In this document: one piece after another, positions 27,795-42,334 of the stretch
How positions within the stretch are numbered: the first letter of the stretch is position 1
How the letters are laid out: each line of letters starts with the position of its first letter
DNA from: Nitrospira sp.
GTDB taxonomy: Bacteria > Nitrospirota > Nitrospiria > Nitrospirales > Nitrospiraceae
Length of the DNA stretch: 64,000 nt
Assembly: GCA_018242685.1 (NCBI GenBank)
Contig: JAFEBM010000010.1
Span: forward strand, 1 to 64,000
Direction: 5' to 3'
Position numbers and translations under genes: made by a program
Notes under the pieces: model-generated
Databases searched by the model: none
Seen by the model: only the letters and a program-made list of their open reading frames with translations
Told to the model about the DNA's origin: nothing

Positions 27795-29846
27795 TCAGAA
27801 GTGCCATGCCACCCCTCCCATGAAGGTGCGGGGGTTGCCCGGCACAAAATGAATGTCGGTAACGCCAGCCGGTTCAGTTTTTAGCCTCGATTCGAACGCG
27901 AAGGTTGCTTGCTCCCAATCCGTATTGAACAGATTCTGAATGAAATAAAAAGCTTCCACCTGACCATACGGTAACTTGATCGGCAACCGATACCGCTGGG
28001 TCCAGTCGAAGACGATCCACGAAGGCGACTTGATGCTCCGATCTTCAACGAGCGGCCGGACCCCGAGATAGGTCGCTTGCAATTGAGAGGTCATGCCTTC
28101 AGGCCATCTCAAAATGGCCGCGCCATAGGCAGTGAACTCCGGAGCTAATGGGATGGCATCGCCATTGCGAAATTTGGCTTGTGTCCATGTAAAACTGCCG
28201 TTCACATAGAGCGGGCCCCAGATTTGCCCGCGCGCGGCCACTTCAAAACCCTGCCGTCTGCTGGGTCCATTAATCTCCGTCGTGCCTTCATCTCCAGAGA
28301 AGACCAATTCCGACTGCAGGTCGATGCGCCAGGCCGTGAGCGTCATTTCGAGCCCTTCCGGTCCCCAAGGTCTGCTCCGAAGTCCCACCTCATAGCTCCG
28401 GGATCGAGCCAGTGGGACACCTCCCACCTGTACGACTGACCGGGCATCATTGCTGTGAAAACCCTCCCCATAATTGACGAAAAATTCCGTTTTGGCCCAC
28501 GGGCCCAGGATCATACTCATCTTGGGTAAGAGCATGCCCGAACTGGTGCGCCCAGCCGGTTGCAAAGCACAGGTGGTGCAGAGATTGCGCACATTGAAGG
28601 TAAATGTTTCCCACCGTAGCCCGCCCACGAACCGAATCCACGAGGCCGGCTGGGCTTCGCCTTTGATATATGGGGCATAGGACGCCTCAAGCACATGGCT
28701 GTCCGTGATAGTCCCAGTCGAGGTGCGCTTCGTTTGCGTCCCCAGCCTTGGATGGATATCATCCACGCGCGCTTGCATGCCGACGGTCCCCACCGTCGGA
28801 ATTCCAAAAAACTCCCAGCGTTGCTTGTACCCGACTTCGCCGCCGGACATGACGCGGCGATCGGACTGCTTGATGCCGTCGCCGTCGACCGGATTGTTCA
28901 AGAAGAACGTAAAATCCGTAAACAAGTCCAGTCGATAATATTGCCCGTAGGCATTGGCAAAGAACTGACCGTTGGTCGTTGTGTCGTAGTGATAGTGCAT
29001 GACTCCGGTCGTGCGCAGAGTCGAGCCGCCTTCCGTCGGATCAATCGCCCCGAACCGGTCGATCAGACCGTCACTCACCGCCCGCAGGGGGATTTCGCCA
29101 GAGGCATTCCATTTGGCTTTTTCAAAAGTAGTCTTCAGGCTGAATTCGTCTCGGCCCGTGAAGCTGGTGGTCAGTTTTCCCAACACGTTGGTGCGCAGAT
29201 ACCGATTATCGTGGTCGAATGGTCCGTTGGTGTAGTAGTTCTCAGCGGCGAACAAGGTCTTAACCTTGCCCTTGGTGGGGGAGAACATCAACAGATAGCG
29301 TTGCGTATCGAATTGCCCACCGGTGGCCTGCGCCACCCCTTCCTGCACCACTTGGCGGGTGCGGAAGTTAATCGATCCAGCTGTTGCAAAGTCTCCGATC
29401 TCGGGAAGGTACGCGCCTTTTGCGGCATCGATCCCTTCAATCGTTTCGGGGATGATGAAATTCAAATCACTATACCCCTGTCCATGCGCATGAGTCCGGA
29501 GATTGATCGGCATCCCGTCCGAGAAGAACGCGACATCCGTGCCATGATCGGCATCGAAGCCGCGCAAGAAATATTGATCGGCCTTGCCGGCCCCGCCGGA
29601 GTGCTCGACGGCCAGCATGCCGGGGATTAAACGGAGCACTTGCGCCGGCCTGCCTTGTGGCTGAAGCACGATTTCTTTGTCGGGAATGAATTGTTGAGAG
29701 GAGGCGGCCACCGGTTTTTCCCCGATGACAGCGACTTCCGGCACTTCCAGTTCAGGCTCGTCCGGCTCCTGGGCTTGGGCGCTCTCCCACATGCCCAGAA
29801 CGACTGTAACCGCAAGTACAACTATCAATGCGCGTGTCCTATCCAC
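27795..29846 (-). CDS. TonB-dependent outer-membrane receptor
   Basis: 683 residues from GTG 29846 (GGAAGA just upstream, followed by a signal peptide ending AQA); the frame is open to 29900. Plug domain: VPEVAVIGEKPVAA (TonB box region), FIPDKEIVLQPQGRPAQVLRLIPGMLAVEHSGG and FLRGFDADHGTDVAFFSDGMPIN. The rest is a 22-strand barrel ending in the C-terminal signature GNPRTFMGGVAWHF. Ligand unknown; nikR and DUF4198 in the same run point to nickel or cobalt. Preceded by one copy of the 36-bp repeat. Confidence 0.9.
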   Translation of the reverse strand: MDRTRALIVVLAVTVVLGMWESAQAQEPDEPELEVPEVAVIGEKPVAASSQQFIPDKEIVLQPQGRPAQVLRLIPGMLAVEHSGGAGKADQYFLRGFDADHGTDVAFFSDGMPINLRTHAHGQGYSDLNFIIPETIEGIDAAKGAYLPEIGDFATAGSINFRTRQVVQEGVAQATGGQFDTQRYLLMFSPTKGKVKTLFAAENYYTNGPFDHDNRYLRTNVLGKLTTSFTGRDEFSLKTTFEKAKWNASGEIPLRAVSDGLIDRFGAIDPTEGGSTLRTTGVMHYHYDTTTNGQFFANAYGQYYRLDLFTDFTFFLNNPVDGDGIKQSDRRVMSGGEVGYKQRWEFFGIPTVGTVGMQARVDDIHPRLGTQTKRTSTGTITDSHVLEASYAPYIKGEAQPASWIRFVGGLRWETFTFNVRNLCTTCALQPAGRTSSGMLLPKMSMILGPWAKTEFFVNYGEGFHSNDARSVVQVGGVPLARSRSYEVGLRSRPWGPEGLEMTLTAWRIDLQSELVFSGDEGTTEINGPSRRQGFEVAARGQIWGPLYVNGSFTWTQAKFRNGDAIPLAPEFTAYGAAILRWPEGMTSQLQATYLGVRPLVEDRSIKSPSWIVFDWTQRYRLPIKLPYGQVEAFYFIQNLFNTDWEQATFAFESRLKTEPAGVTDIHFVPGNPRTFMGGVAWHF

Positions 29847-29911
29847 TCTTCCTATTCTCCTATTCCTCGTCGAGGTTCTGTAGACGGATGAGACGCCCAC
29901 AATGATTGAGT

Positions 29912-29947
29912 GACAGCCGACTCATCGACCGGCGCAGACCCTCGTGG
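29912..29947 (-). promoter_or_regulatory. 36-bp conserved leader element, copy 1
   Basis: Exact match over 36 bases to 33272-33307. It lies 65 bp before the receptor start (29846) on the transcribed strand. As RNA it can form GCCGG/UCGGC with an 8-base loop (UCGAUGAG). No known riboswitch class was recognised. Bases on either side do not match. Confidence 0.6.
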
Positions 29948-30162
29948 CCGGATGTTTTGACCAGGGTCGGAAACAACGAAAGGAATCTCGAAATGCTCCC
30001 TCTTCATGAAGACCAACGCTGGGTGTCATGGTCAGATCAATCATCCGTGTGAATGAAGATGATCTCCCCTCACTTCAACTCTGTCCCTTCTAATCAGGAC
30101 CGATAATTTATTGTCCGGCGCCAGAAGAGCCGCACGTGCCAGCACAATTTGCAGATTTCCCT
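29948..30162. other. Rest of the 316-bp gap (29847-30162) between receptor and DUF4198 genes
   Basis: No gene seen. AT-rich stretch near 30105-30115 (ATAATTTATTGT) could hold the receptor promoter. Confidence 0.4.
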
Positions 30163-30999
30163 TCAGTGACTTTTCGATCCAAGATCAACCGCATGGGAAA
30201 TTAAGCGGGGCGGAAGCACGAAACTCAAAGTGGCGTTATGTAAGTCATGCGCAGCGAGCTCTGGATAAACACCAGGCACGAGATAATCCACGACAAGAAG
30301 TTGCGGGCCGACTTTGGCAAGGGGAATGGCCGCGATCCCCTGTTCATCTGTTTTAAAGCGCGGAATATTCTCCTCTTCCATGGGCGTGATTCCATCCCCC
30401 AGTTCAACGAACACCCCACTTAATGGCTTGCCCTCAAAATACACCTTCACGGAGAGCGACTCTCCCGACTTCATGGTAAACGGATCATCAAGCGGAACCA
30501 GTTCGAGCCGATGCCCTACGATTTTTGTGTATAGGTTCGATGTTGCTGAACGGATTTGAAGCAATGCCTTCGCATACTTCATGGAGGAGAGGCTCTCGGC
30601 ACCGTCCGGGACCTGAAGTTTGCTCGTATTGCGATGCCCGTGTGTCGTCTGAACCCAGAAGCCATTGTCGTACTGGGCGGCCAACAGGATGACGTCCGAT
30701 TCGGCAAGGATAGGTAGCGGAGCGGTGATGAGAATCGGAATACTGTTGTGGTGGACGGCACGCATAATTCCCGGAAGGAGCGATGTCTGCGACTGGGTAC
30801 CGGTGAAGATATCCAATGTGAAGAGCTTGTCCGGGTCCGGCACTTTACGATCCCCCGGATGGCCATGGTTGACGATTGCTCTGTGGCCTCCGTCCCTCTC
30901 GTCACTCGTCGTGATCCAGATGTCATGCGCCTCGACCCGAAGAAGCATCGGTTCAAGCATGGTCAGCAATGTCATCACCAGTAATGTTCTTCTCAACAT
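30163..30999 (-). CDS. DUF4198 (NikM-like) periplasmic protein
   Basis: 278 residues, signal peptide ending VEA before HDIWITTSDE. The His-Asp just after cleavage, and the strand-rich architecture with GESLSVKVYFEGKPLSGVFVELG and a C-terminal TDEQGIAAIPLAKVGPQLLVVDYL, are typical of DUF4198 proteins associated with nickel/cobalt transport (NikM/CbiM accessory type). The stop-to-start gap to the upstream receptor is two bases, so the two form an operon. Confidence 0.8.
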   Translation of the reverse strand: MLRRTLLVMTLLTMLEPMLLRVEAHDIWITTSDERDGGHRAIVNHGHPGDRKVPDPDKLFTLDIFTGTQSQTSLLPGIMRAVHHNSIPILITAPLPILAESDVILLAAQYDNGFWVQTTHGHRNTSKLQVPDGAESLSSMKYAKALLQIRSATSNLYTKIVGHRLELVPLDDPFTMKSGESLSVKVYFEGKPLSGVFVELGDGITPMEEENIPRFKTDEQGIAAIPLAKVGPQLLVVDYLVPGVYPELAAHDLHNATLSFVLPPRLISHAVDLGSKSH

Positions 31000-31001
31000 G
31001 C

Positions 31002-33200
31002 TTACCTCATACCAGCAGGTGGCCTTATGTCTTCAGATTGTCTCTCTTCCACAGCTCCCGCACGTTGTGTGCCCGTCGGAAATCGATAGGTCACACCGAC
31101 CATGAACTGAAAGGGGGCTTGCGGATTGACGACGATATCGGAAGGAGACGCTCCCACTCCCGGTCCCAGATTGATCGCGGTTTCACTCAATCGGTCACCC
31201 GGATACCAGATCACATCGGCATAAACCATCCATCCGCTCTTTTGATGCGCATAGCCGAGCCGACCGGAGATCCGTGGATACGGGCTACTGGTGATCACAC
31301 CGTCTTCCGTCAAATGTTTCTTTCCATAATACGTTCCATAGGCGAGACCGAAGACCCGATGCGGAGTCTCCCGCCCTCCGATTGGAACATCGAAGTCGGA
31401 GCCGATGTTGAAGATATACGCGGGAACATTGGGGACGAACTCGGAAGGCGCGCGATTCAAGAGAACGGCGCGAATTTGGGTGAAGTTGGCGAACAAGGAA
31501 GCTCGGCCTTGTGGATCCTGTCGGATGTAGTACCGACCCTCAAGTTCGTACCCTTCGCGTCGCGACCGACCAAGGTTTTGGAGCGGCAACCCGGGAGCGG
31601 GCTGAAAGATTTCCCGCTCAAGGGTTGTGGTGTACACATCAGCTTGAAACCGGAATTTCGAGTACTGTACTTGGACGCCCACTTCTTGGCTCAGGAGCTT
31701 CAGCGGTTTCAAATTCGGCGAGCTGATGACCTCATCAATCGCGCTCGGCGAGCGAAATCCTTCGCCGTAATTCGCATAGAATTCGAGCCACGACACCGGC
31801 GTTATCGCAATGCCGCCCTTCGGGCTCAGCACTCCTGTGTCGCTCTTGGGCACTGAACTTGATGCGAGATGATCATCGATGTCATACCAGAAATGATCGT
31901 AGCGACCGCCACCCGTGAGCTTAAGCCAGGACAGGGGCTTGATCTGAGCCTGCATATATTGGCCCCAGCCGATTTCCGTATAGTTCACATCCGTGGTATT
32001 GGGCCCGCTGGGATTGCGGGCGATGGTGGGAACTCTGATGACTCCGACCGAATCATTCCGGAAGTTCGTGCCCACCATAAATTGGGCGGGCAGCATGAAA
32101 ACCTTGCCGGTCCAGACCTTCCGCAGGGTGAGCCCCGTGGTTACGCGGTTCTCCTGCGCTAGACTTTGGCCGCTGCCAAAGTCGGCAAACCGAGAAAAGG
32201 TATCGTGATTCAAAAACCCGGTGAACGTGAGCGCCTGATCCGATTCGCCCAACGCATAGTTGGCCACAACATTCTGAAAATCCTTCTTGCCTCCATCCGT
32301 TCCATTGACGGGAGCCTTCGGGCTCAGTACTCCCGATTGCACGAGACTCCGTGAAATATAGCCGGGCGAGCCCCAGTCGCCGCCGTAGAACTGCGTGCGA
32401 ACAGAAAGGTCGCCGTACCGGCTCGGGATCGTGAATTTCCCGAAGAGGTTGTAGCGCTTATAGTTCTGATTATCGCGATACCCGTCCGAGTTGTATCCCT
32501 CAAATACGAGGAAAGGCGCAATGGTCCCCTCCGTTCGAGGACGCGCGTAGGTAACGACGCCACGCACAGTATTGAAATAGCCTCCATACGCTCCGACCGA
32601 TCCCTTATTGTCGAATCGTTTGGTGATAATATTCACCGAGCCTCCAAGATTGGCATCTCCATAAAGGGGATTGAAAGGACCGCGAGTGATTTCCAACCGC
32701 TCAACCGTTTCGGGAATCAGGATATTCAGATCTGCATAGTTTGGCGTTTGCACGCTGGAGACTTCATTGACCGGCACACCGTCGATGAAATACGCGACAT
32801 CCCGCCCGTGCTCGATGTCTGTAAAACCACGGATCGAAATGCCATATCCCAAGCCGCCCTGTCCGAAGTTGTTCACGTCCACCCCTGGGAGTTGCCGCAG
32901 GAGATCTCCATAGGTGCCTGTATAGGGTGATTGCTGAATATATTTCGAATCCAAAATCGTCGTGGGCGCGGGTAATGTCGCGGGATTCGCTGTCACTTCG
33001 GTTCTTGATTGAGGCCAATACGCTTGAGAACGTTCCCCTGAGACGATAACTTCAGGGACCGTGATCTCGACATCGGGCTGATCACGAGACTTCTCTGTTG
33101 ATTCATCTTGCGCCATCGCGATGGTCACCGCGGGCAGTGTCGTTCCCCCAAACAAAAATCCGACCGCCAACCCCATCGCACATGCTCGATCCCGTTTCAT
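31002..33200 (-). CDS. TonB-dependent outer-membrane receptor, probable nickel/cobalt uptake
   Basis: 732 residues. ATG 33200 is preferred over 33227: GAGGGG precedes it and the signal peptide then starts MKRDRACAMG. The plug contains VPEVIVSGE, TILDSKYIQQSPYTGTYGDLLRQLPGVDVNNFGQGG and ISIRGFTDIEHGRDVAYFIDGVPVNE; the barrel follows. DUF4198 partner, TonB-like protein and NikR on the same strand support nickel or cobalt as ligand; this is inference from context. Confidence 0.9.
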   Translation of the reverse strand: MKRDRACAMGLAVGFLFGGTTLPAVTIAMAQDESTEKSRDQPDVEITVPEVIVSGERSQAYWPQSRTEVTANPATLPAPTTILDSKYIQQSPYTGTYGDLLRQLPGVDVNNFGQGGLGYGISIRGFTDIEHGRDVAYFIDGVPVNEVSSVQTPNYADLNILIPETVERLEITRGPFNPLYGDANLGGSVNIITKRFDNKGSVGAYGGYFNTVRGVVTYARPRTEGTIAPFLVFEGYNSDGYRDNQNYKRYNLFGKFTIPSRYGDLSVRTQFYGGDWGSPGYISRSLVQSGVLSPKAPVNGTDGGKKDFQNVVANYALGESDQALTFTGFLNHDTFSRFADFGSGQSLAQENRVTTGLTLRKVWTGKVFMLPAQFMVGTNFRNDSVGVIRVPTIARNPSGPNTTDVNYTEIGWGQYMQAQIKPLSWLKLTGGGRYDHFWYDIDDHLASSSVPKSDTGVLSPKGGIAITPVSWLEFYANYGEGFRSPSAIDEVISSPNLKPLKLLSQEVGVQVQYSKFRFQADVYTTTLEREIFQPAPGLPLQNLGRSRREGYELEGRYYIRQDPQGRASLFANFTQIRAVLLNRAPSEFVPNVPAYIFNIGSDFDVPIGGRETPHRVFGLAYGTYYGKKHLTEDGVITSSPYPRISGRLGYAHQKSGWMVYADVIWYPGDRLSETAINLGPGVGASPSDIVVNPQAPFQFMVGVTYRFPTGTQRAGAVEERQSEDIRPPAGMR

Positions 33201-33271
33201 GACTCTACACCCCTCACATCGACGCATGACATGCGTGAGCGGTGCCGAGCGAAACGCTCACGTGATCTTTC

Positions 33272-33307
33272 GACAGCCGACTCATCGACCGGCGCAGACC
33301 CTCGTGG
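33272..33307 (-). promoter_or_regulatory. 36-bp conserved leader element, copy 2
   Basis: Same 36 bases as copy 1, 72 bp before ATG 33200. It ends about 31 bp from the stop of the DUF3842 gene, so it sits inside a short intergenic leader. Confidence 0.6.
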
Positions 33308-33338
33308 TCTCGCAACTCAGGACAAAATGGTAATGCAG

Positions 33339-33782
33339 TTATGCGTGGCAGGTTGCCTGGACGGCAACACTGACGCGTGAGAGGCACTCGTCGATCAACG
33401 TATCCATCGTGCGGCCTTCAGTCCCCACGATTTCTACCCGGACTCGATTCAATGGCAACAGCACCTTCTTGGCCTTCGCTTCAAGAATCGTTTTGGCGAC
33501 CTCAGGAGTGACTTCACCGAGCATGGCGCCGGGCAAGACAAAGTTCAACGAGGCGACAATGACATCGACAGTCGGCAACAGTTTGGCCATCGCCTCGCCT
33601 CCCGATGTGACCTGATCTGCCCCGGCCTTCCCCATCGCTTCAGCGGCCGCTTGATTGGTTCCCCACGCCAAGATTTGGCACTCGGGATCCAGAGTTTTTC
33701 GCAACCCCGTGACCAACCGGCAACCCAGCCCTCCACCTCGGCCGTCCATCACACAGATTGTGCGTTTCAAGACGTGACCCAC
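33339..33782 (-). CDS. DUF3842-family protein
   Basis: 147 residues. Begins TICVMDGRGGGLGCRLVTGLR, the N-terminal pattern of DUF3842, and has a second conserved part VDVIVASLNFVLPGAMLGEVTP and a final KKVLLPLNRVRVEIVG. A Rossmann-like single-domain protein of unknown function that is common beside metal or cofactor genes. Placed between tonB and the receptor. Confidence 0.8.
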   Translation of the reverse strand: MGHVLKRTICVMDGRGGGLGCRLVTGLRKTLDPECQILAWGTNQAAAEAMGKAGADQVTSGGEAMAKLLPTVDVIVASLNFVLPGAMLGEVTPEVAKTILEAKAKKVLLPLNRVRVEIVGTEGRTMDTLIDECLSRVSVAVQATCHA

Positions 33783-33843: not shown

Positions 33844-34881
33844 TTAATTTGCGAGCTTGTAGACGAGTGGGACTGTGACAGTGATTTGCGCACGGCCCAA
33901 TTCGCGCCGCAAATGCATAGGACTCGCCTCCCGCATGGTCTGCATTGCAGCCGCATCCAGCTCCTCGTGACCGGAACTTTTCTGCACCGACACGTCAGCC
34001 AAATGTCCGTCGGCTAGGATCACGGCCCGGAGCAGCACCTTGCCTTCCAACCCACTACTGCGAGCCACCGCCGGATAGCGTTTCAGCTCTGCCAGCCGTG
34101 TACTGAGAGATTCGATCAGCCATCCATAGTCGGCCCGAGCTGACGGCGTCTGTTGCATCGCTTTCATTGTTTTCTGAACCGACTCGACGGACCACAACGG
34201 AGAAATCAAGTCCTGCGGCACAGCCACCAATTGCGATGGAACATTGCCATGTGAGGCATCGGCATCGACCTTCTGCCGAGTTTTTTCAGACGGCGAAGAA
34301 TCGGTCTCAGTCGATGCGGTCGGTTGCATAGCTAATGGTTTCTCTGTTTCAGCTATTGAAGCGGCGGCAGATCCCGTTACCGATTCAGGCATCGGTACGG
34401 TTTCATGGACCAGATTCGCTTCGCTGACCGGCTTCAGGGTTTGAACGCCGGTCGGGACTTGCTGTTCGACCACAGAAGACGGTACGGCGGGTTGAAGAAC
34501 CTGTCGCTCTATCAACTTCGTCGCTTCAAAAGATTGCCGTGGCGCTTTGGCGGCAAAACTCGACTGGCGAGTTTGCACTTCTTGCAGCACTGCCTGAGAA
34601 GCTGAGGAGACCTGTTTCATGGGTCGGACCTGCGGCTGTGACACAAGCATGGGTGGCATGGCGTCGCCCTGTGTTTCGGCTGGCTGCTCCTGCGCCAGCT
34701 CAACGAGCGACACGTTCCAGTGAAATACTTCCTGCAGTGGAATCGGCTTCATTTGGGCTACCAACAAGGCTGCGAGCATCACGGCAATGCCATGTAGAAT
34801 AAACGATGCGCCCCACGCCTGAGCATATAATCCGCGTTCGCCCGCCTCCATCACCTTGCCATGGCTTTCAGAAACCGGCAC
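33844..34881 (-). CDS. TonB-family energy transducer
   Basis: 345 residues. One N-terminal membrane helix (about 25-42), a long Pro/Gln/Ser-rich linker across the periplasm and a C-terminal TonB domain with RYPAVARSSGLEGKVLLRAVILADGHLADVSVQKSSGHEELDAAAMQTMREA. The motif QEVFHWNVSLVE after the helix is also found in the second TonB-like protein at 39111 (ELFHWDVTLVQ), marking them as paralogues. ExbB/ExbD are not in the window. Confidence 0.88.
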   Translation of the reverse strand: MPVSESHGKVMEAGERGLYAQAWGASFILHGIAVMLAALLVAQMKPIPLQEVFHWNVSLVELAQEQPAETQGDAMPPMLVSQPQVRPMKQVSSASQAVLQEVQTRQSSFAAKAPRQSFEATKLIERQVLQPAVPSSVVEQQVPTGVQTLKPVSEANLVHETVPMPESVTGSAAASIAETEKPLAMQPTASTETDSSPSEKTRQKVDADASHGNVPSQLVAVPQDLISPLWSVESVQKTMKAMQQTPSARADYGWLIESLSTRLAELKRYPAVARSSGLEGKVLLRAVILADGHLADVSVQKSSGHEELDAAAMQTMREASPMHLRRELGRAQITVTVPLVYKLAN

Positions 34882-34973: not shown

Positions 34974-35402
34974 TCACCCTATGGCCTTTCCGGTCGTTGT
35001 CATCGTCAGCTTGCCGTGTTTCACGCCTTTGACTGACACTAAGGCATCCGCCACCTTTCTGATCTCCGATCCCTTGCCTTTTACCACCAACACCTCAAGA
35101 CAATGGTCATGATCGAGATGCACATGCATGCCCGACAGAATCTGCGCATGGTAATCGTGTTGAATATCCGTCAATTTACTGGTCAGGTCCCGCACATGAT
35201 GGTCATACACGAACGTAATCGTGCCGACCGTTTCTTTATTCTCATCCCATTCTTGACCGACTAAATTATTGCGGATGAGATCGCGCAACGCTTCCGAGCG
35301 GTTGGTGTATTTCCGCCGTTCGATATGGCGATCGAATGCATCCAACAGATGGTGATCGAGGGACACTCCGAAGCGCACCAACTTGGTCATACCCTTGTTC
35401 AT
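34974..35402 (-). CDS. nikR: Nickel-responsive repressor NikR
   Basis: 142 residues. N-terminal ribbon-helix-helix ([37 protein letters not shown]) and C-terminal ACT-like nickel-binding domain. The four ligands equivalent to E. coli H76, H87, H89 and C95 are present as His82, His93, His95 and Cys101 in the [14 protein letters not shown] region. It would repress the neighbouring receptor and TonB genes when nickel is plentiful. A clear canonical NikR operator was not found by eye. Confidence 0.92.
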
Positions 35403-35553
35403 ACCCTTTATCCCTTTACTGGTGTCACGAATTTAAATTTAGTAGCACAGCACTTTTCAAAAATCAATCGTTGATGCTCGTACTGTCTATCTTACGGTAA
35501 TTCACCGATGATTGGATTCACGAGGACACGAAGAAACCGAGCCCTGCGAATAC

Positions 35554-36459
35554 CTATCGCAGCATCTCGTTTTGTGGTGAAGAGATCACGAGCAGCAGAC
35601 ACCCTTCGTCCGTCGATGTATCATGATGCACAGTCCCTGTTTCGGCCCGATGATAGTCTCCAACCGTCATCTCGCGGCCGGCGATATTGCATCCGCCTTC
35701 GAGGACATAGAGTTCTTCCACTGCGGTATGACGATGCGGGGCGTAGCTGGTGCCGGGTGCAAAACGGAGGACCGTGGTGGTCCTTCGGGAAGTCGGATCA
35801 AAGGACAGCAACTTAGCCGTCACTCCCGGAGCGATTCCCCTCCAGGTTCCTTCCGACGCGCTGATGAAGGTAAGACCCTTCGTCGGGTGTTGAAGCGCGA
35901 TCTTGTCCTTCCAATACCTGACTCGCTCCGAGGTCACGGAACGAATAAGCATGGTCCCCAGGAAATTCGAAACAGCCGTCCAGAAAGATCGCGACCGACT
36001 GAAGAGGGAGCCACCCTCACTTTCATTCCTCATCCTATCATCCTGCAAGACAGGCGTTTCGCTTAGGACCTGCGCCGAGTCTGTCGCATCGAGTCGGATA
36101 TCCGAATGCCCTTCGATCCGTGAGAGGAGCCGTTCACGTACAGAATCGCGAGGCTTTACTGGAAGGGACGCCGAAGCCAATGTATTTGCAGCGAGCTCAA
36201 ACTGTTCAGCGTCGCGAGCAGCATCCAACGCCACCTCCTTGACAAGCCGTTCGCGAAGGGTCGAGGAAGGCGTCACCGGCGCAACGACTGCGGCCAATGC
36301 ACCCGTTGTCGCTTGATACGCTGTCGCTGTTTTGCGCAAGAGATCGGATTCTCCTCGCAGTCTCACCATAAATGCCCGGTGATCGTCCTGCTCCAATATC
36401 CCGAGGGCATGGAGAATCGCCTGTTCTTCCAATTCTTCCGGTAGTTTGAGTTCGGTCAC
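35554..36459 (-). CDS. ChrR-like cupin anti-sigma factor
   Basis: 301 residues. An N-terminal helical anti-sigma domain (about 1-110) is followed by a linker and a C-terminal cupin: GVTAKLLSFDPTSRRTTTVLRFAPGTSYAPHRHTAVEELYVLEGG and YHRAETGTVHHDTSTDEGCLLLV. The HRH...E...H set could bind a metal. Its ATG overlaps the sigma gene stop by four bases, so the two are translationally coupled. Similar ChrR proteins release their sigma factor in response to singlet oxygen or other stress; the signal here is unknown. Confidence 0.82.
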   Translation of the reverse strand: MTELKLPEELEEQAILHALGILEQDDHRAFMVRLRGESDLLRKTATAYQATTGALAAVVAPVTPSSTLRERLVKEVALDAARDAEQFELAANTLASASLPVKPRDSVRERLLSRIEGHSDIRLDATDSAQVLSETPVLQDDRMRNESEGGSLFSRSRSFWTAVSNFLGTMLIRSVTSERVRYWKDKIALQHPTKGLTFISASEGTWRGIAPGVTAKLLSFDPTSRRTTTVLRFAPGTSYAPHRHTAVEELYVLEGGCNIAGREMTVGDYHRAETGTVHHDTSTDEGCLLLVISSPQNEMLR

Positions 36460-37058
36460 GGCGTTAAACCTGCCTCATAAGGCGCGAGCGCTTCGCGCAA
36501 TTTCATCATACCCAATCTGATTCTCGTCTTCACCGTCCCGAGGGGCAGCTGCAGTTTCTCCGCGATTTCACTTTGACTTAGGCCATAGAAATAGGCCAGT
36601 GCGATTGCTTGCCGCTGTTCCGCCGTGAGGACTGCCAACGCCTGTCGTACATACCGTCGACGCTCCTGACCTTCGACATCCTGCTCCGGCGTGTCGTCGG
36701 CGCTGACAAGTAGTTCGACCGCATCCAACGATTCAATGCGCCCGTATTCGGCAGCCCCGGCACGAAACCGGTCGATCGCCCTGGTACGGGCCAAGGTCAT
36801 CAACCAAGCCCCCGGTGCGCCACGTGCGTGGTCATAGGTATGGGCCTGACGCCACACCTGCGTGTAGACGTCCAAGGTGACTTCTTCAGCGGCCTCGCGA
36901 TTATTAAGAATTTTGAGGACAAGCCCAAAGACCTGCGGGCTCGTACGATCGTACAACGTGGCAAGCGCGGTCTGATCGCCCTGCGCTGTCAGAGCAATCA
37001 GTTGTGTCCATTCTTGGTCTTGAGCCGCTTTGGTCGTTTCCGGCGACATGAGCAACAT
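36456..37058 (-). CDS. ECF RNA polymerase sigma factor
   Basis: 200 residues from ATG 37058, chosen for the GGGGGAGA site; the frame is open to 37286 but that extension has no such site. Region 2: ATLYDRTSPQVFGLVLKILNNREAAEEVTLDVYTQVWRQA; region 4: LAVLTAEQRQAIALAYFYGLSQSEIAEKLQLPLGTVKTRIRLGMMKLREAL. Divergent from the DUF4331 operon, which it likely controls. Confidence 0.9.
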   Translation of the reverse strand: MLLMSPETTKAAQDQEWTQLIALTAQGDQTALATLYDRTSPQVFGLVLKILNNREAAEEVTLDVYTQVWRQAHTYDHARGAPGAWLMTLARTRAIDRFRAGAAEYGRIESLDAVELLVSADDTPEQDVEGQERRRYVRQALAVLTAEQRQAIALAYFYGLSQSEIAEKLQLPLGTVKTRIRLGMMKLREALAPYEAGLTP

Positions 37059-37304
37059 AGCAATCTCCCCCTTCAATCTGTACGAGTGAATGAGGGAGAT
37101 CGGATTGCCGGTTTTAAAATATGTTTTTGCTCGCCCTGGAGGCCTAACTATAGCACCAGATAAACAACCCCTCAAGCAGCCTCCCCTCACGATGAGATCC
37201 AAACTAAGAAACTTCTCGTAGTGGAAAGCAGACCACCAGTAGGTGCTCACTACAAAGACGGATTCATAACAGTGGCATTTCACCATTTAGAGGAGAGGAG
37301 AGCC

Positions 37305-37529
37305 ATGAAACCACCCATGTCTTGGTCACTGGGATTCGTTTTCACCGTCGGACTGTTATCCGGCTGCAGCGGAAGCGACACCACGCCCATTATTACGCCT
37401 CCAAGCGGACCGACGGCCGCAGCGGAAGATCAGCGCACTCCGCAATCGGATGCGCTCACATCGGACGAGGCAGCGCTGGTCAGCCAGGCTGACTCGGAAC
37501 CCAATCCGGCGCCGAAACCGGATCTGTAA
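37305..37529 (+). CDS. Small lipoprotein
   Basis: 74 residues. ATG 37305 preceded by AGGAGAGGAG. Lipobox LLSGC at about residue 22; the mature part is short, Pro/Ala/Asp-rich and probably unstructured. First gene of the DUF4331 operon. Function unknown. Confidence 0.75.
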   Translation: MKPPMSWSLGFVFTVGLLSGCSGSDTTPIITPPSGPTAAAEDQRTPQSDALTSDEAALVSQADSEPNPAPKPDL

Positions 37530-37566
37530 CCAATCATTCACGAGAAAGATTCACAAGGAGGACACC

Positions 37567-39057
37567 ATGTTCGCTCGAATTCGACCGTTCATCCTGATGA
37601 TACTGGCTGTGTGCATGGCGACGCCGGTCTTAGCTGCGAGCCATCGCGAGGCTCCGCTGATCGCGAATGATCCGACGGCGGATATCACGGATTTCTATTT
37701 CTTCCGCAGCTGGCAGGACCCCGACAACGCCATTCTGATCATGAATGTGATCCCAAGCCAGGAGCCGGGATCCGGCCCCAACTACTTCAACTTCGCGGAC
37801 GACGTGCTGTATGAAATTCATATCGACAACAACAAGGACAACATCGCGGGGAACATCGTCTATCAGATCCGATTCAAAACAGAGATCCGTCAACCAGGAA
37901 ACGTGTTCCCACTAGCCTATGTCGCGTTGCCTCCCATCACGGCCCTCACCGGTGGAGGATCGGAAGGGTTGCTCGTGCGGCAAAGCTACACCGTCACGGA
38001 GCGGCGGTCCGGTCGATCGCCACGCGATCTCGGCGCCGGTCCGATGTTCGCCGTGCCGTCGAACGTCGGCCCTCGCACCACGCCGAATTATGAACAGCTG
38101 GCAGCCAAAGGGGTTTTCCCGCTGAAAAACGGAGGGAGAGTCTTCGCCGGCCAACGGGATGAGACCTTCTACATCGACTTAGGAGGAACATTCGACACGT
38201 TGAACCTACATATCTCCCCGATTCTTTCCAATGCGGACGACGCCAACGACGCCGTCATCGTCGGAGCGCCGGGCGCCGGTACCGCCGATACCTTCAGCGG
38301 CTTCAACGTGAACACGATCGCGCTGGAAATTCCCATCAGCGAGCTTCTCGGCCCGAACGGCAACAAGGTGCTCGGCGCCTACGCCAGCACGAGCCGGCCC
38401 AAGGTCAGCGTCATCAAGAAAAACGGCGACCGTGACAACAGCTCTCGCTTCGTTCAAGTGGCGCGTATGGGGAATCCGCTTGTCAACGAGTTGATCATCG
38501 CGACGAACATGAAGGACAAGTGGAATGCCACGGATGCGGAAGACGAGAACGATTTCGTTCCGTTTTACTGCAACTCGGCGCTGGCCACGGCACTCAACGC
38601 GGTCTTCGGCACCGGTTTCCCGACGGCGAATCGAGAAGATCTCGTGAACGCCTTGCTCCGGTATGCGCCCGGCCCACCGGTCTGCGGATCCGGCAAAACC
38701 CATGAAGCCCTGGCTGAGCTCCTGCGAGTCGATTTGGACGTCCCACCGACCCAGGCCGACGGCCAGAGGCGACTGGGCCCTCTCGCCCATGACGCGAGCG
38801 GCAATGCCACGCCGGATAAAGCCGGCTGGCCGAACGGCCGGAGGCCGAACGACGATGTCACTGATGTGGCCTTGCGCGTCGTAGCCGGAATTCTGACGAA
38901 CCCTGCCGTCCCGAACCTCGGCGACGGTGTCAACTTCAACGTCGGATCAGTCGGCGGCAACAAAACAGCGAACGGGATTGCAACAGTGTTTCCGTTCCTT
39001 CCGACGCCGTTCGACGGCCGTGATCGTCGCCACATCGATCCACGAGAGGCCTTCTAG
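37567..39057 (+). CDS. DUF4331-family secreted protein
   Basis: 496 residues, start at ATG 37567 with AAGGAGG upstream. Signal peptide ends LAA before SHREAPLIANDPTADITDFYFFRSW, the typical DUF4331 mature N terminus. Further on, PNYEQLAAKGVFPLKNGGRVFAGQRDETFYIDLGG and IALEIPISEL are family features. Beta-rich, periplasmic or surface protein of unknown activity. Followed by a perfect hairpin and the TonB/TPR/HupE genes. Confidence 0.88.
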   Translation: MFARIRPFILMILAVCMATPVLAASHREAPLIANDPTADITDFYFFRSWQDPDNAILIMNVIPSQEPGSGPNYFNFADDVLYEIHIDNNKDNIAGNIVYQIRFKTEIRQPGNVFPLAYVALPPITALTGGGSEGLLVRQSYTVTERRSGRSPRDLGAGPMFAVPSNVGPRTTPNYEQLAAKGVFPLKNGGRVFAGQRDETFYIDLGGTFDTLNLHISPILSNADDANDAVIVGAPGAGTADTFSGFNVNTIALEIPISELLGPNGNKVLGAYASTSRPKVSVIKKNGDRDNSSRFVQVARMGNPLVNELIIATNMKDKWNATDAEDENDFVPFYCNSALATALNAVFGTGFPTANREDLVNALLRYAPGPPVCGSGKTHEALAELLRVDLDVPPTQADGQRRLGPLAHDASGNATPDKAGWPNGRRPNDDVTDVALRVVAGILTNPAVPNLGDGVNFNVGSVGGNKTANGIATVFPFLPTPFDGRDRRHIDPREAF

Positions 39058-39067
39058 TCGTCGCCAA

Positions 39068-39097
39068 GCGGGTGCCGCTTGCACATGCGGCACCCGC
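39068..39097 (+). terminator. Strong hairpin between DUF4331 and TonB-like genes
   Basis: GCGGGTGCCGC (39068-39078) and GCGGCACCCGC (39087-39097) are perfect 11-bp arms with an 8-base loop. There is no T-run, so it may slow decay of the upstream message or reduce read-through rather than terminate fully. Confidence 0.7.
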
Positions 39098-39110
39098 GCT
39101 GCCAAAGAGC

Positions 39111-40022
39111 ATGAACGTGAACCAGGAGGCAACAACACAAGGATTGAGGATGCGATTCCTGCACAGCTGGCTCGTCTCAATCGCGCTCCACGGACTCTTT
39201 CTTTTCAGCCTCTTCCCCCTATTCCGTCAGTCGATACCGACCTTGCCCGAGGAACTGTTTCACTGGGATGTTACGCTCGTGCAATCGGCACCAACAGCTC
39301 ATGAGTCGGTTCAAACCGCCGATACCACAAAGTCGGATGTGCCGAAACAACCTGAACACAGTTCAACATTCACTCACGCCAAACGCACGATCCAACACGC
39401 CACCTCATCTACCGAGCGCATCACGCCTCTCAAACCACAGACTGACGCACCTGCTGCACCGAATTCCATGCCTGACAGTCCTTTGCCGGTCACATCAGTG
39501 AGCGAGATGGCCACAACTTCGATACCGAATGAATTATCCCCTCCGTCGGCACAGGCAACTGAACCTTTGTCACAACAGACTAAGACGCCGATTGACTCAA
39601 CGGCATCAGCACCACCACGACTCGAAACGATCAATCCCGCCACTCCCCTAGAAGAGAGCACACCTACCGACAGCACCCTGTCACCGCCGCTCCTCTCCAC
39701 AGCGTCAGATGTCGCCACCGGTTCCTCGATACGACCCGACTACGGGTGGCTTCAGCAAGCAATCTTCCGCCGGCTGGAGGAACTCAAGCGATCTTCTCGC
39801 CCATCACTCGATGAATCGCGCCCCCTCAAAGTCACGGTCAAGGCAGTGGTCTCGAAGGAAGGAATCTTACTGGATTCTGCAGTGGTGAAAAGCTCCGGCC
39901 TGGATCACGTTGATCAAGAAGCGATCGCGCTCGTGCAACGGGTCTTTCCCATGCAGTTCGACCGTGCATTGGACCGGCAACAAATCGCCATGCGCATTCC
40001 CATCACCTATTCGCGCGAGTAG
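39111..40022 (+). CDS. TonB-family energy transducer, second copy
   Basis: 303 residues from ATG 39111 (39150 is an alternative). Membrane helix at about 17-35, ELFHWDVTLVQ, a Ser/Thr/Pro-rich spacer and a TonB C-terminal domain: LKVTVKAVVSKEGILLDSAVVKSSGLDHVDQEAIALVQRV. The spacer is Thr/Ser-rich instead of Gln-rich as in its paralogue. Genes 3' of it overlap or abut, so this is an operon. Confidence 0.85.
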   Translation: MNVNQEATTQGLRMRFLHSWLVSIALHGLFLFSLFPLFRQSIPTLPEELFHWDVTLVQSAPTAHESVQTADTTKSDVPKQPEHSSTFTHAKRTIQHATSSTERITPLKPQTDAPAAPNSMPDSPLPVTSVSEMATTSIPNELSPPSAQATEPLSQQTKTPIDSTASAPPRLETINPATPLEESTPTDSTLSPPLLSTASDVATGSSIRPDYGWLQQAIFRRLEELKRSSRPSLDESRPLKVTVKAVVSKEGILLDSAVVKSSGLDHVDQEAIALVQRVFPMQFDRALDRQQIAMRIPITYSRE

Positions 40023-40025
40023 TCC

Positions 40026-41213
40026 ATGATTCGGTTGCTTACAGTTGGAAGCGTGATCGGATGGCTCATGTTGAGCCACGTCGGCACCACGTACGCCGAA
40101 CCCTACCGGCCGACGGACGATGCCCAGATCCTTGAGCGACTCAGTTTTAAGGCCTCCGATCCGCTCGCGCGCGAGCTCGAATCGTTACGAGTCAATCTGC
40201 GAAACAACCCTCGGCATCTCGAATCAGCGGTGAAACTGGCCACTCGCTATATCGAACAAGGCCGGTCGGAAGGCGATCCTCGTTTCCTTGGGCAAGCACA
40301 GGCAGTCCTCACCCCTTGGTGGAACGAGCCGACGCCTTCACCGGCAACGCTCCTCTTACGAGCCACCATCCGGCAGAACGCCCACGAGTTCAATGAGGCC
40401 CTAGCAGACCTCGATCAGGTATTGGTGGTCCAGCCGGCCAACGCCCAGGCTTGGCTCACCAAAGCATCGATTCTGCAAGTGCAGGCACGCTACGAAGAGG
40501 CGCGCCGAGCCTGTCAGCGGCTCGCGCGGTCGGCTGCCGCTCACGTGCTGCTTGGCTGCTTGAACGATATCGCCGGCGTGACCGGTCACTCGGCGAAGAG
40601 CCAAGAGCTGCTCCGACAGGTTCTTTCTGCGCCGACTCTCTCGGGACGCGAACGAATCTGGATTGCGACCATCCTGGCTGAAACAGCCACGCGCACCGGA
40701 GCCATACGAGAGGCTGAAGAGTATTTTGTCGAAGCCTTCAAGGTCGGCATCAAGGATCAGTACTTGTTGAGCGCCTACGCTGACTTTCTGCTGGATCAAC
40801 ACCGTTATCAAGGCGTCATTTCCCTCCTCCAATCTGAGACGAGAGCCGATGGGTTGCTCCTGCGTCTGGCGCTCGCGGAGCAGGCATTGAATCTGTCCAC
40901 GTTCCAGAGCCACATCGCCGAACTGGCGGCCCGCTTTGCCGCAAGCCGCGAACGCGGAACAACCGTCCATGTGAGAGAAGAAGCACGATTCACATTGGCC
41001 TTATTGCACGATGCCGAACGGGCGCTGCCGCTCGCCCAGGTCAATTGGAAGATGCAGCGAGAACCGGCGGACGCCAGGATTCTCCTAGAATGTGCGCTCT
41101 CCAACAAGAATCGAGCGGCAGCCCAGCCGGTGCTCGATTGGCTGAGCCACAACCATGTTGAAGACGTTCGACTGCGACAACTTGCGAAGCAGATTCAGGA
41201 GGCCACATTCTAA
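40026..41213 (+). CDS. Secreted TPR-repeat protein
   Basis: 395 residues; signal peptide ending TYA. Several tetratricopeptide-like helical repeats follow (LLLRATIRQNAHEFNEALADLDQVLVVQPANAQAWLTKASILQVQARYEEARRACQRL). Probably a periplasmic scaffold. The stop overlaps the HupE/UreJ start (TAATG). Its steady pairing with DUF4331 and HupE/UreJ suggests a common complex. Confidence 0.82.
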   Translation: MIRLLTVGSVIGWLMLSHVGTTYAEPYRPTDDAQILERLSFKASDPLARELESLRVNLRNNPRHLESAVKLATRYIEQGRSEGDPRFLGQAQAVLTPWWNEPTPSPATLLLRATIRQNAHEFNEALADLDQVLVVQPANAQAWLTKASILQVQARYEEARRACQRLARSAAAHVLLGCLNDIAGVTGHSAKSQELLRQVLSAPTLSGRERIWIATILAETATRTGAIREAEEYFVEAFKVGIKDQYLLSAYADFLLDQHRYQGVISLLQSETRADGLLLRLALAEQALNLSTFQSHIAELAARFAASRERGTTVHVREEARFTLALLHDAERALPLAQVNWKMQREPADARILLECALSNKNRAAAQPVLDWLSHNHVEDVRLRQLAKQIQEATF

Positions 41214-42334
41214 TGCGTACCTTGCTCGTCATCGCCTGGCTTCTCCTGAGCCTTCCCGCCTGGGCTCATAAGCCCAGCGACAGCTATCTCTCACTATCGA
41301 TTCAGAACGAGCGCGTTGAGGGACGATGGGATATCGCCTTGCGCGACCTCGCCGATGCCATCGGATTAGATGGGGATGGAAACGGCCAACTCACCTGGGG
41401 AGAGGTCCGGAACAAGCATGACGAGATCAGGGCCTACGCACTGTCTCGCCTTGCTCTATCAGTTAATCTGCAGGCCTGTACGATTGAGTTGCTGGAGCAA
41501 CTCATCGATCACCACACGGACGGAGCTTACTCAGTTCTGCGCTTCCGTTCTGATTGCGGCAGATCCATCGAACGGCTCGCGGTGGACTACCGACTCTTGT
41601 TCGATATTGACGCACAACATAAGGGCCTCCTGCGACTTACTCAAGGTGGACGGACCAGCACCGCCATTTTCAGCAAAGAATCACCGGTCCAGGAATTTTC
41701 GATCGCCCAGTGGTCGCGCTGGACCGAGAGCATGCAATTCATTCACGAGGGCATCTGGCACATCTGGCTGGGGTTCGACCATGTCTTGTTCTTGCTCGCG
41801 CTTTTGCTTCCGGCGGTCTTGATCCTGGCGGAAGGTCGCTGGCAAGCGGCGTGTGACTTTTCATCGGTCTGGTGGAATGTCGTCAGCATCGTCACGGCCT
41901 TTACCGTAGCCCACTCGCTGACGTTGAGTCTGGCCGCCCTGGATGTCGTACGGCTCCCATCTCGATTGGTGGAGTCAACCATCGCGGCTTCGGTGGTCCT
42001 TGCCGGTCTTGGCAATTTGTATCCAATGATGATAAGTCGGCGTTGGCTGGTGGCTTTTGGCTTCGGCCTGATTCATGGATTTGGATTTGCCGCCGTGCTC
42101 ACGGATCTCGGCCTGCCTCACGACTCATTGTTGCTGAGTCTGTTGAGCTTCAACGTGGGAGTGGAAATCGGCCAACTCGCCATCGTCGGCGCCTTCTTGC
42201 CTCTTGCTTATCTGATCCGCCGATCCTGGTCCTATCCGAGATTGGTGCTCACCGGCGGATCACTGGCGGTGATCGCCATCGCACTCGTCTGGTTCACCGA
42301 ACGAGCGTTCGATCTACAGCTGCTTCCCCTCTGA
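41213..42334 (+). CDS. HupE/UreJ-family membrane protein
   Basis: 373 residues. A secreted N-terminal domain (AHKPSDSYLSLS after the signal peptide) precedes about seven helices carrying the HupE/UreJ signature HEGIWHIWLGFDHVLFLLALLLP and FGFGLIHGFGFAAVLTDLGLP with conserved His. Members transport nickel or act as accessory permeases for hydrogenase/urease, but many of this architecture are of unknown function. Here it ends the DUF4331 operon. Confidence 0.85.
   Translation: MRTLLVIAWLLLSLPAWAHKPSDSYLSLSIQNERVEGRWDIALRDLADAIGLDGDGNGQLTWGEVRNKHDEIRAYALSRLALSVNLQACTIELLEQLIDHHTDGAYSVLRFRSDCGRSIERLAVDYRLLFDIDAQHKGLLRLTQGGRTSTAIFSKESPVQEFSIAQWSRWTESMQFIHEGIWHIWLGFDHVLFLLALLLPAVLILAEGRWQAACDFSSVWWNVVSIVTAFTVAHSLTLSLAALDVVRLPSRLVESTIAASVVLAGLGNLYPMMISRRWLVAFGFGLIHGFGFAAVLTDLGLPHDSLLLSLLSFNVGVEIGQLAIVGAFLPLAYLIRRSWSYPRLVLTGGSLAVIAIALVWFTERAFDLQLLPL

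Follow-up and report, generated by a model that had tools for sequence, protein, structure and literature searches.

What does a perfect 36-bp repeat do in front of two receptor genes? This question was raised by a 64,000-nucleotide stretch of the Nitrospira sp. assembly GCA_018242685.1 (contig JAFEBM010000010.1, positions 1 to 64,000; hereafter the window), where two genes for TonB-dependent receptors, A and B, each carry the repeat in their leaders. A preliminary description had placed two identical copies in the same orientation 65 and 72 bp before the receptor starts, and we found this to be exact: copy A (29912-29947) and copy B (33272-33307) are 100% identical, with the minus strand as functional strand, as for both receptor genes, and lie 65 nt from the GTG at 29846 and 72 nt from the ATG at 33200, respectively; the open reading frame list gave longer, less likely starts for these receptors. 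At up to 3 mismatches, the 36-mer occurs twice in the window compared with 0 occurrences in 100 dinucleotide-preserving shuffles, and the window copies are its only 2 matches in the whole 4,206,459-base genome. Comparison across genomes indicates a conserved folded leader RNA of about 80 nt, with the 36-mer as its core and confined, as far as we can see, to the Nitrospira family, and this element probably switches production of the receptor on and off.

We examined 175 genomes of the family; in the following, G denotes a genome, L a locus or leader, C a contig and g a genus. At the same tolerance, the 36-mer was present in 33 of them, as a single copy in each except the source genome, and reading of 32 loci showed conservation to begin about 10 nt ahead of the 36-mer and to continue for about 35 nt beyond it. 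A covariance model of 81 positions, R1, was made from 29 sequences, copy A and 28 relatives. It matches copy A with 83.8 bits at 29879-29959 and copy B, which was absent from its rows, with 79.5 bits at 33234-33319, and we place the whole structured leader RNA at 29880-29959 for receptor A and at 33235-33319 for receptor B, both on the minus strand. Since conservation spans about 80 nt, the 36-mer alone was ruled out as the unit. The core proposed in the preliminary description is therefore real, but the unit is larger and most genomes have one copy before one receptor; similarly, its remark that nothing is similar on either side of the repeat holds for an ungapped comparison of the copies but not for the 81-position model, which matches both of them whole.

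Searching the family genomes with R1 (E ≤0.01) gave 61 places, of which 4 weak ones (G100:C99, G098:C69, G169 and G008) were judged false on reading, leaving 57 places in 55 genomes. The weak R1 matches L092-L095 and L085:2071 were dropped after reading, the last one lying, by eye, inside a P-type ATPase coding sequence. Two R1 copies per genome were seen only in the source genome and G136. The upstream regions of 97 receptor genes that R1 had left unmatched yielded 14 diverged elements at the same junction, and 3 leaders at contig ends (L131, L199 and L208) were unclassifiable. Together with a variant in G007 (AGACCATGAGGGTCT, before receptor B), the element amounts to 72 places in 70 of the 175 genomes (57 R1, 14 diverged and the G007 variant), and all 72 lie directly before a TonB-dependent receptor gene. 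The preliminary description had named scatter without regard to receptor genes as the outcome that would count against a cis element of receptor leaders, and the element is not scattered. Outside the family, R1 had no match at E ≤0.001 in a sample of 395 phylum genomes, and a pattern search of the same sample returned nothing that looks convincing: matches in 7 genomes (G413, G408, G444, G390, G288, G244 and G217) were taken as chance, the rest of the element being missing by eye, and matches in 7 further genomes within the family (G031:C218, G053:C1:3292226, G061, G064, G095, G114 and G139) were judged likewise.

The predicted structure combines three hairpins (H1, H2 and H3) with a long-range helix, P1. 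In copy A, read on the minus strand, S1 (CCACGAGGGTCT, 29936-29947) provides the 5' strand of P1, and its first bases are also used by H1 (29946-29949 pairing with 29937-29940). H2 (29914-29931) is a 5-bp stem with the loop GATGAGTC; the 7-bp H2 of R1 was cut to this length, as its two inner pairs break in L077-L082. S2 (29897-29908) supplies both the 3' strand of P1 and the 5' arm of H3, and H3 (29880-29900; GTGGGCG / TCTCATC / CGTCTAC) has a loop complementary to that of H2 and a 3' arm, S3. Copy B, also on the minus strand, keeps H2 (33274-33291) within the identical 36-mer, and its H3 (33235-33261; GTGAGCG / 13-nt loop / CGCTCAC) has a new arm sequence in which pairing is maintained. The small hairpin noticed earlier corresponds to H2, but the 36-mer on its own folds no better than shuffles (z +1.27). 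As a separate observation, S1 can also pair with CGTGATCTGA, or a similar sequence, just downstream of H3 in L085, L088, L137, L143 and other g14 leaders.

Covariation in homologues, whose absence had been named as a second counter-argument, is present for H2, H3 and the contact between their loops. A first count with the 29 close relatives gave no double changes, and support came only with diverged homologues. For 51 sequences, H1, H2, H3 and the H2-loop:H3-loop contact form standard pairs in 97.4% of alignment cells, compared with 34-51% for slid-structure controls, and 6 pairs have changed on both sides versus a shuffled mean of 1.2, with 0 of 500 shuffles reaching 6. P1, in which S1:S2 is continued by H2, shows 92.4% standard pairs. 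We then used an alignment of 65 sequences (49 MAFFT rows, 2 re-registered and 14 aligned by hand) and a null of 600 simulations along the tree of the same sequences, taking as statistic the changed cells that are still paired. This fraction was 87% for H2 (null 41±12; 0/600), 78% for H3 (null 57; 19/600), 62% for H2-H3 kissing (null 38; 7/600), 60% for P1 (null 48; 65/600) and 98% for H1 (null 87; 75/600), and with the 49 MAFFT rows alone the simulations reaching the observed value were 4/600 for H2, 6/600 for H3, 3/600 for kissing, 181/600 for P1 and 471/600 for H1. These results show that H2, H3 and their kissing covary beyond the tree-based null, and in a single-pair test all five H2 pairs did so with p ≤0.012.

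The kissing contact was further supported by loops that change together (GATGAG/CTCATC, GAGAGG/CTTCTC, GAGAGG/CCTTTT, GCTAGG/CCTAGT and GGCAAG/CTTGTC). Own loops outperformed permuted partners, with 0/5000 permutations doing as well for all loops, 0/5000 for the 35 distinct loop pairs and 4/5000 within genus g14; permutation of whole blocks gave 0/5000 for P1, H2, H3 and kissing. H2 and H3 are also inverted repeats in the DNA and nikR heads the operon, as would suit an operator built from inverted repeats and bound by NikR or another repressor. The tolerated mismatches speak against such a site: G-U cells outnumber A-C cells 40:0 in H1, 47:7 in H2, 63:9 in H3 and 92:21 in P1, an imbalance that is unexpected for double-stranded DNA and indicates that the selected strand is the sense RNA of the gene strand and not a DNA palindrome. 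In addition, the dyad found upstream of nikR, GTGCTA-N15-TAGCAC, differs from the element and is absent there, and the element sits about 30 nt after a gene, inside the operon, so that a DNA operator seems to us barely credible.

How could such an RNA act on the receptor? As P1 and H3 both require S2, they are mutually exclusive, and two folds would compete. In the first one, S1 (CCACGARGGTCT) and S2 would form a helix of up to 12 bp that is capped by H2, and the freed S3 would pair with the stretch that separates the Shine-Dalgarno sequence from the start codon, turning the receptor off. In the second one, S2:S3 would form H3, S1 would close H1 and the loops of H2 and H3 would kiss, leaving the start region freer and the receptor on, and some signal would shift the balance between both folds. 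Of the possible P1 pairs, 11/12 are formed in L133, 12/12 in L134, 11/11 in L135 and 12/12 in L084, L085 and L086, with S3 pairing directly over the AUG in L133-L135. In an energy model from which kissing is absent, the P1 fold is favoured over H1+H3 in 54 of 65 leaders, with a mean energy difference of 6.0 kcal/mol over all of them. When P1 is enforced, the Shine-Dalgarno region is less accessible than with H1+H3 in 46 of the 65 leaders (means 0.37 vs 0.48), as is the start codon in 47 (means 0.34 vs 0.50). S3 is also more complementary to its own start region (-9.0 kcal/mol) than to permuted ones (-8.2 kcal/mol; 1/5000), a comparison confounded by clade, and no transcription terminator-like site was found in the leaders. 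The calculated energies suggest P1 as the off state and translation as the controlled step. Taken together, we favour, with reasonable though not high confidence, a leader RNA that controls translation of the downstream TonB-dependent receptor through competing folds in nikR operons.

Several points weigh against this proposal. Covariation of P1, the helix that would define the off state, is weak (see the counts above) because S1 is nearly invariant, and an all-pairs test over the whole alignment left no pair at E <0.05, the best, at 0.1, being an H2 pair. The 14 hand-aligned rows were placed with the structure in mind, and 2 more were re-registered. The kissing contact is missing from g15/g4, L084 and L090 and is diminished in L075 and L051, and the window leaders themselves show no or slight folding advantage over shuffles (z 0.02 for copy A and -1.55 for copy B). 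The accessibility differences are modest, with Wilcoxon p values overstated by the relatedness of the rows; they were computed from start codons chosen by a script, of which those of L033, L041, L061 and L088 are doubtful, and about 18 of the 65 leaders lack lower accessibility in the P1 fold.

Conservation could instead be owed to a translated upstream open reading frame, whose leader peptide, MSRLSxDHRGRLIRP, would start at an ATG in the H2 loop and couple its translation to that of the receptor. This frame spans the element's 3' half (in copy A from 29925, minus strand), is kept in most g1 and g17 copies and, in five cases of which two are frameshifted, has a stop that overlaps the receptor start (ATGA). 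A stop or frameshift interrupts it early in L058, L066, L061, L069 and L078, in which the RNA helices persist, and it was not found in g14 or g15. Furthermore, changes by codon position (43 in 16, 29 in 15 and 49 in 15 columns) show little third-position bias, and H1, which lies upstream of the frame, is equally conserved. We judged the frame secondary as a conserved unit because it is broken in 5 copies, was not found in g14/g15 and is weakly biased, and consider translational coupling of this kind highly improbable.

We next compared the element with catalogued RNAs. Rfam 15 gave 0 matches at the gathering cut-off in the 64-kb window; at E ≤5, five element loci gave only 4 chance matches to miRNA, sRNA and lncRNA families, away from the elements, and the cobalamin and NiCo models had no match at the element in the window or at these 5 loci. 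The element is a previously uncatalogued RNA, in no Rfam family, in agreement with the earlier inspection by eye, in which it resembled no riboswitch class recognisably. Riboswitches are typified as conserved structured leaders of genes with one function, and this is what we observed, with the receptor gene constant and H2, H3 and kissing covarying. Known NiCo riboswitches precede exporters and contain a four-way junction, whereas the element precedes a presumed importer, has no four-way junction and gives no Rfam match. What the two would share is Co2+/Ni2+ sensing, reported for the NiCo (czcD) riboswitch (PMC7917058) and here only a candidate property. The cobalamin riboswitch before btuB, described as controlling a TonB-dependent receptor translationally (PMC11162775), resembles the element as a structured leader of such a receptor, with control of translation initiation (predicted here) and a role in micronutrient uptake; it differs in that our element is about 80 nt long, is without Rfam match and has nickel (nikR) and not cobamide as operon context. 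Two hairpins with loops thought to kiss are also described for the guanidine-II riboswitch (PMC7544219), from which the element is set apart by loop sequences, helix lengths, gene context and, again, the lack of an Rfam match. Within open-licence PMC literature, judged by titles and abstract openings and with subscription papers and preprints mostly outside its scope, we found no description of the element, of a "nickel riboswitch" or of DUF3842, the family of the neighbouring gene. A riboswitch-like RNA that is uncatalogued and stands in so clear a gene context offers a direct way to look for new ligands.

The gene context of the element is shared across the family. In the window, on the minus strand, the operon begins with nikR (34974-35402; PF08753/PF01402), followed by a tonB-like gene (33844-34881; PF03544), the DUF3842 gene (33339-33782; PF12953), receptor B (31002-33200; Pfam Plug and beta-barrel), a DUF4198 gene (30163-30999) and receptor A (27795-29846; Pfam Plug), with which the element was ancestrally paired. 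The loci examined share the order nikR-(tonB)-DUF3842-element-receptor A ortholog, with tonB only sometimes present, and the element lies about 30 nt past the DUF3842 stop, within the operon. Receptor A orthologs occur in 157 of the 175 genomes, far more than carry the element. The earlier association with receptor genes near nikR is right as regards the receptor leader, but the presence of the element follows DUF3842, which had gone unmentioned. Where nikR directly abuts the receptor, the core motif is absent in 79 of 79 examined leaders; where DUF3842 lies between them, the element is found in 67 of 67 (62+2 with the strict core pattern and 3 with a substituted core, by eye), a count that includes the R1-found loci and genome G120 twice. 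A receptor paralog, L202, has neither nikR nor the motif. By Pfam search, 68 of the 175 genomes have DUF3842 (53 of the R1 genomes, the 14 with diverged elements and G007), and the element is present in all 68 (in G007 as the diverged variant) versus 2 of the 107 others, in which the diverged form was searched for only at the nikR-receptor junction. Mapped on a NikR tree, DUF3842 switches between presence and absence about 21 times, an upper figure given the short protein. The element thereby offers a first handle on DUF3842.

The 2 genomes with the element but no DUF3842 are G058, where about 55 nt resembling the DUF3842 3' end persist, by eye, and G124, where the element precedes a receptor A paralog (52% identity) with a MerR gene upstream; in both, the element is retained although neither DUF3842 nor nikR adjoins it any longer. 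Separately, G024, G143, G058 and G124 each have two receptor A-type loci, one with the element and one without, and are natural pairs for comparing regulation.

This linkage would suit a protein-binding RNA, in which the DUF3842 protein, or another one, would bind the leader and control the receptor, and the top weak PDB matches of the DUF3842 profile are to ribosomal protein uL1 (E 0.04; not significant), a known mRNA-binding repressor. Against it stand G058 and G124, which keep the element before the receptor in genomes without DUF3842, and the predicted DUF3842 fold, a lone Rossmann-like domain (pLDDT 88) nearest to a UbiX-like flavin enzyme (E 5e-4, TM ~0.5) and to NAD-binding domains, which does not support an obvious RNA-binding protein. 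We regard protein control as rather unlikely. The position inside the operon, almost only in its DUF3842-bearing form, and the lack of terminator-like sites would also suit a non-switching intercistronic RNA, whose stable structure would set mRNA processing or decay and with it the DUF3842:receptor protein ratio. The exclusion between P1 and H3, the complementarity of S3 to the start and the covarying kissing loops exceed the needs of a stabilising hairpin, and the element remains next to the receptor whether DUF3842 lies 3.4 kb off, as in the window, or is missing, as in G058 and G124; a passive role of this type appears to us unlikely.

If the competing-fold leader is a switch, which signal would it sense? 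The nikR gene that the preliminary description had noted nearby is genuine (NCBIfam equivalog NF003381, 207.7 bits vs a cut-off of 105). Upstream of it, at about 35403-35560 of the window and at 123 other loci, we observed the dyad GTGCTA-N15-TAGCAC, exact in 14 of the 124 leaders, and the word TCGTGCTAC just before nikR, which together are likely the NikR operator of the Nitrospira family. A genuine NikR with a recurrent dyad upstream of its gene indicates that NikR probably controls operon transcription at its start. The element shares with the NikR regulon an operon that begins with nikR and the NikR-type dyad-like site upstream of that gene; it differs in sequence, and any action it has would be on the RNA, beyond both nikR and DUF3842 in the downstream direction. 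It would add a post-transcriptional layer at the receptor, beneath NikR. From this context, cellular Ni2+ or Co2+ is our guess for the signal, which would repress uptake when the metal is plentiful; the DUF3842 protein is the main alternative as ligand. Nickel matters to Nitrospira-type bacteria, which include nitrite oxidisers and complete ammonia oxidisers, at least for urease (PMC12342949). Neither receptor falls in a substrate-specific family above cut-off, and even the solved structures closest to receptor A resemble it only remotely. We put forward only tentatively the fuller proposal of a new riboswitch class in Nitrospira-type nitrifiers that senses Ni2+ (or Co2+) via a kissing-loop fold, controls translation of an outer-membrane nickel receptor as a second layer under NikR and is gained and lost with the uncharacterised protein DUF3842.

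Why, then, does this genome carry two copies? Element B, receptor B and DUF4198 form a 3360-bp segment (29948-33307) bounded by the 36-bp direct repeat, whose spacing is also 3360; relatives have DUF3842-element-receptor A without it, and the window minus these 3360 bp is the arrangement of the relatives. The ancestral upstream flank, next to DUF3842, is retained in copy B, whose third hairpin has changed in sequence but can still pair; copy A has retained the ancestral downstream half, in front of receptor A. The simplest account is that recombination through the element placed a cassette of a receptor gene and DUF4198 between DUF3842 and the receptor that was there originally. Receptor B occurs in 3 of the 175 genomes, the source genome, G136 and G007. 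In G136 (L084) it stands behind nikR-DUF3842-element, and in G007 (L209) behind nikR-DUF3842-variant element, with the same DUF4198 partner followed by a 28-aa C-terminal remnant of receptor A, which suggests that in G007 the cassette has replaced receptor A. A regulatory RNA can, in this manner, act as a recombination point for the swapping of receptor genes.

Finally, a region beside the nikR operon (35554-42334 of the window) is conserved there in many relatives and encodes an ECF sigma factor, a ChrR-like cupin, a DUF4331 protein, a second tonB-like protein and a HupE/UreJ_2 protein, the last one a possible nickel/cobalt permease by family name.

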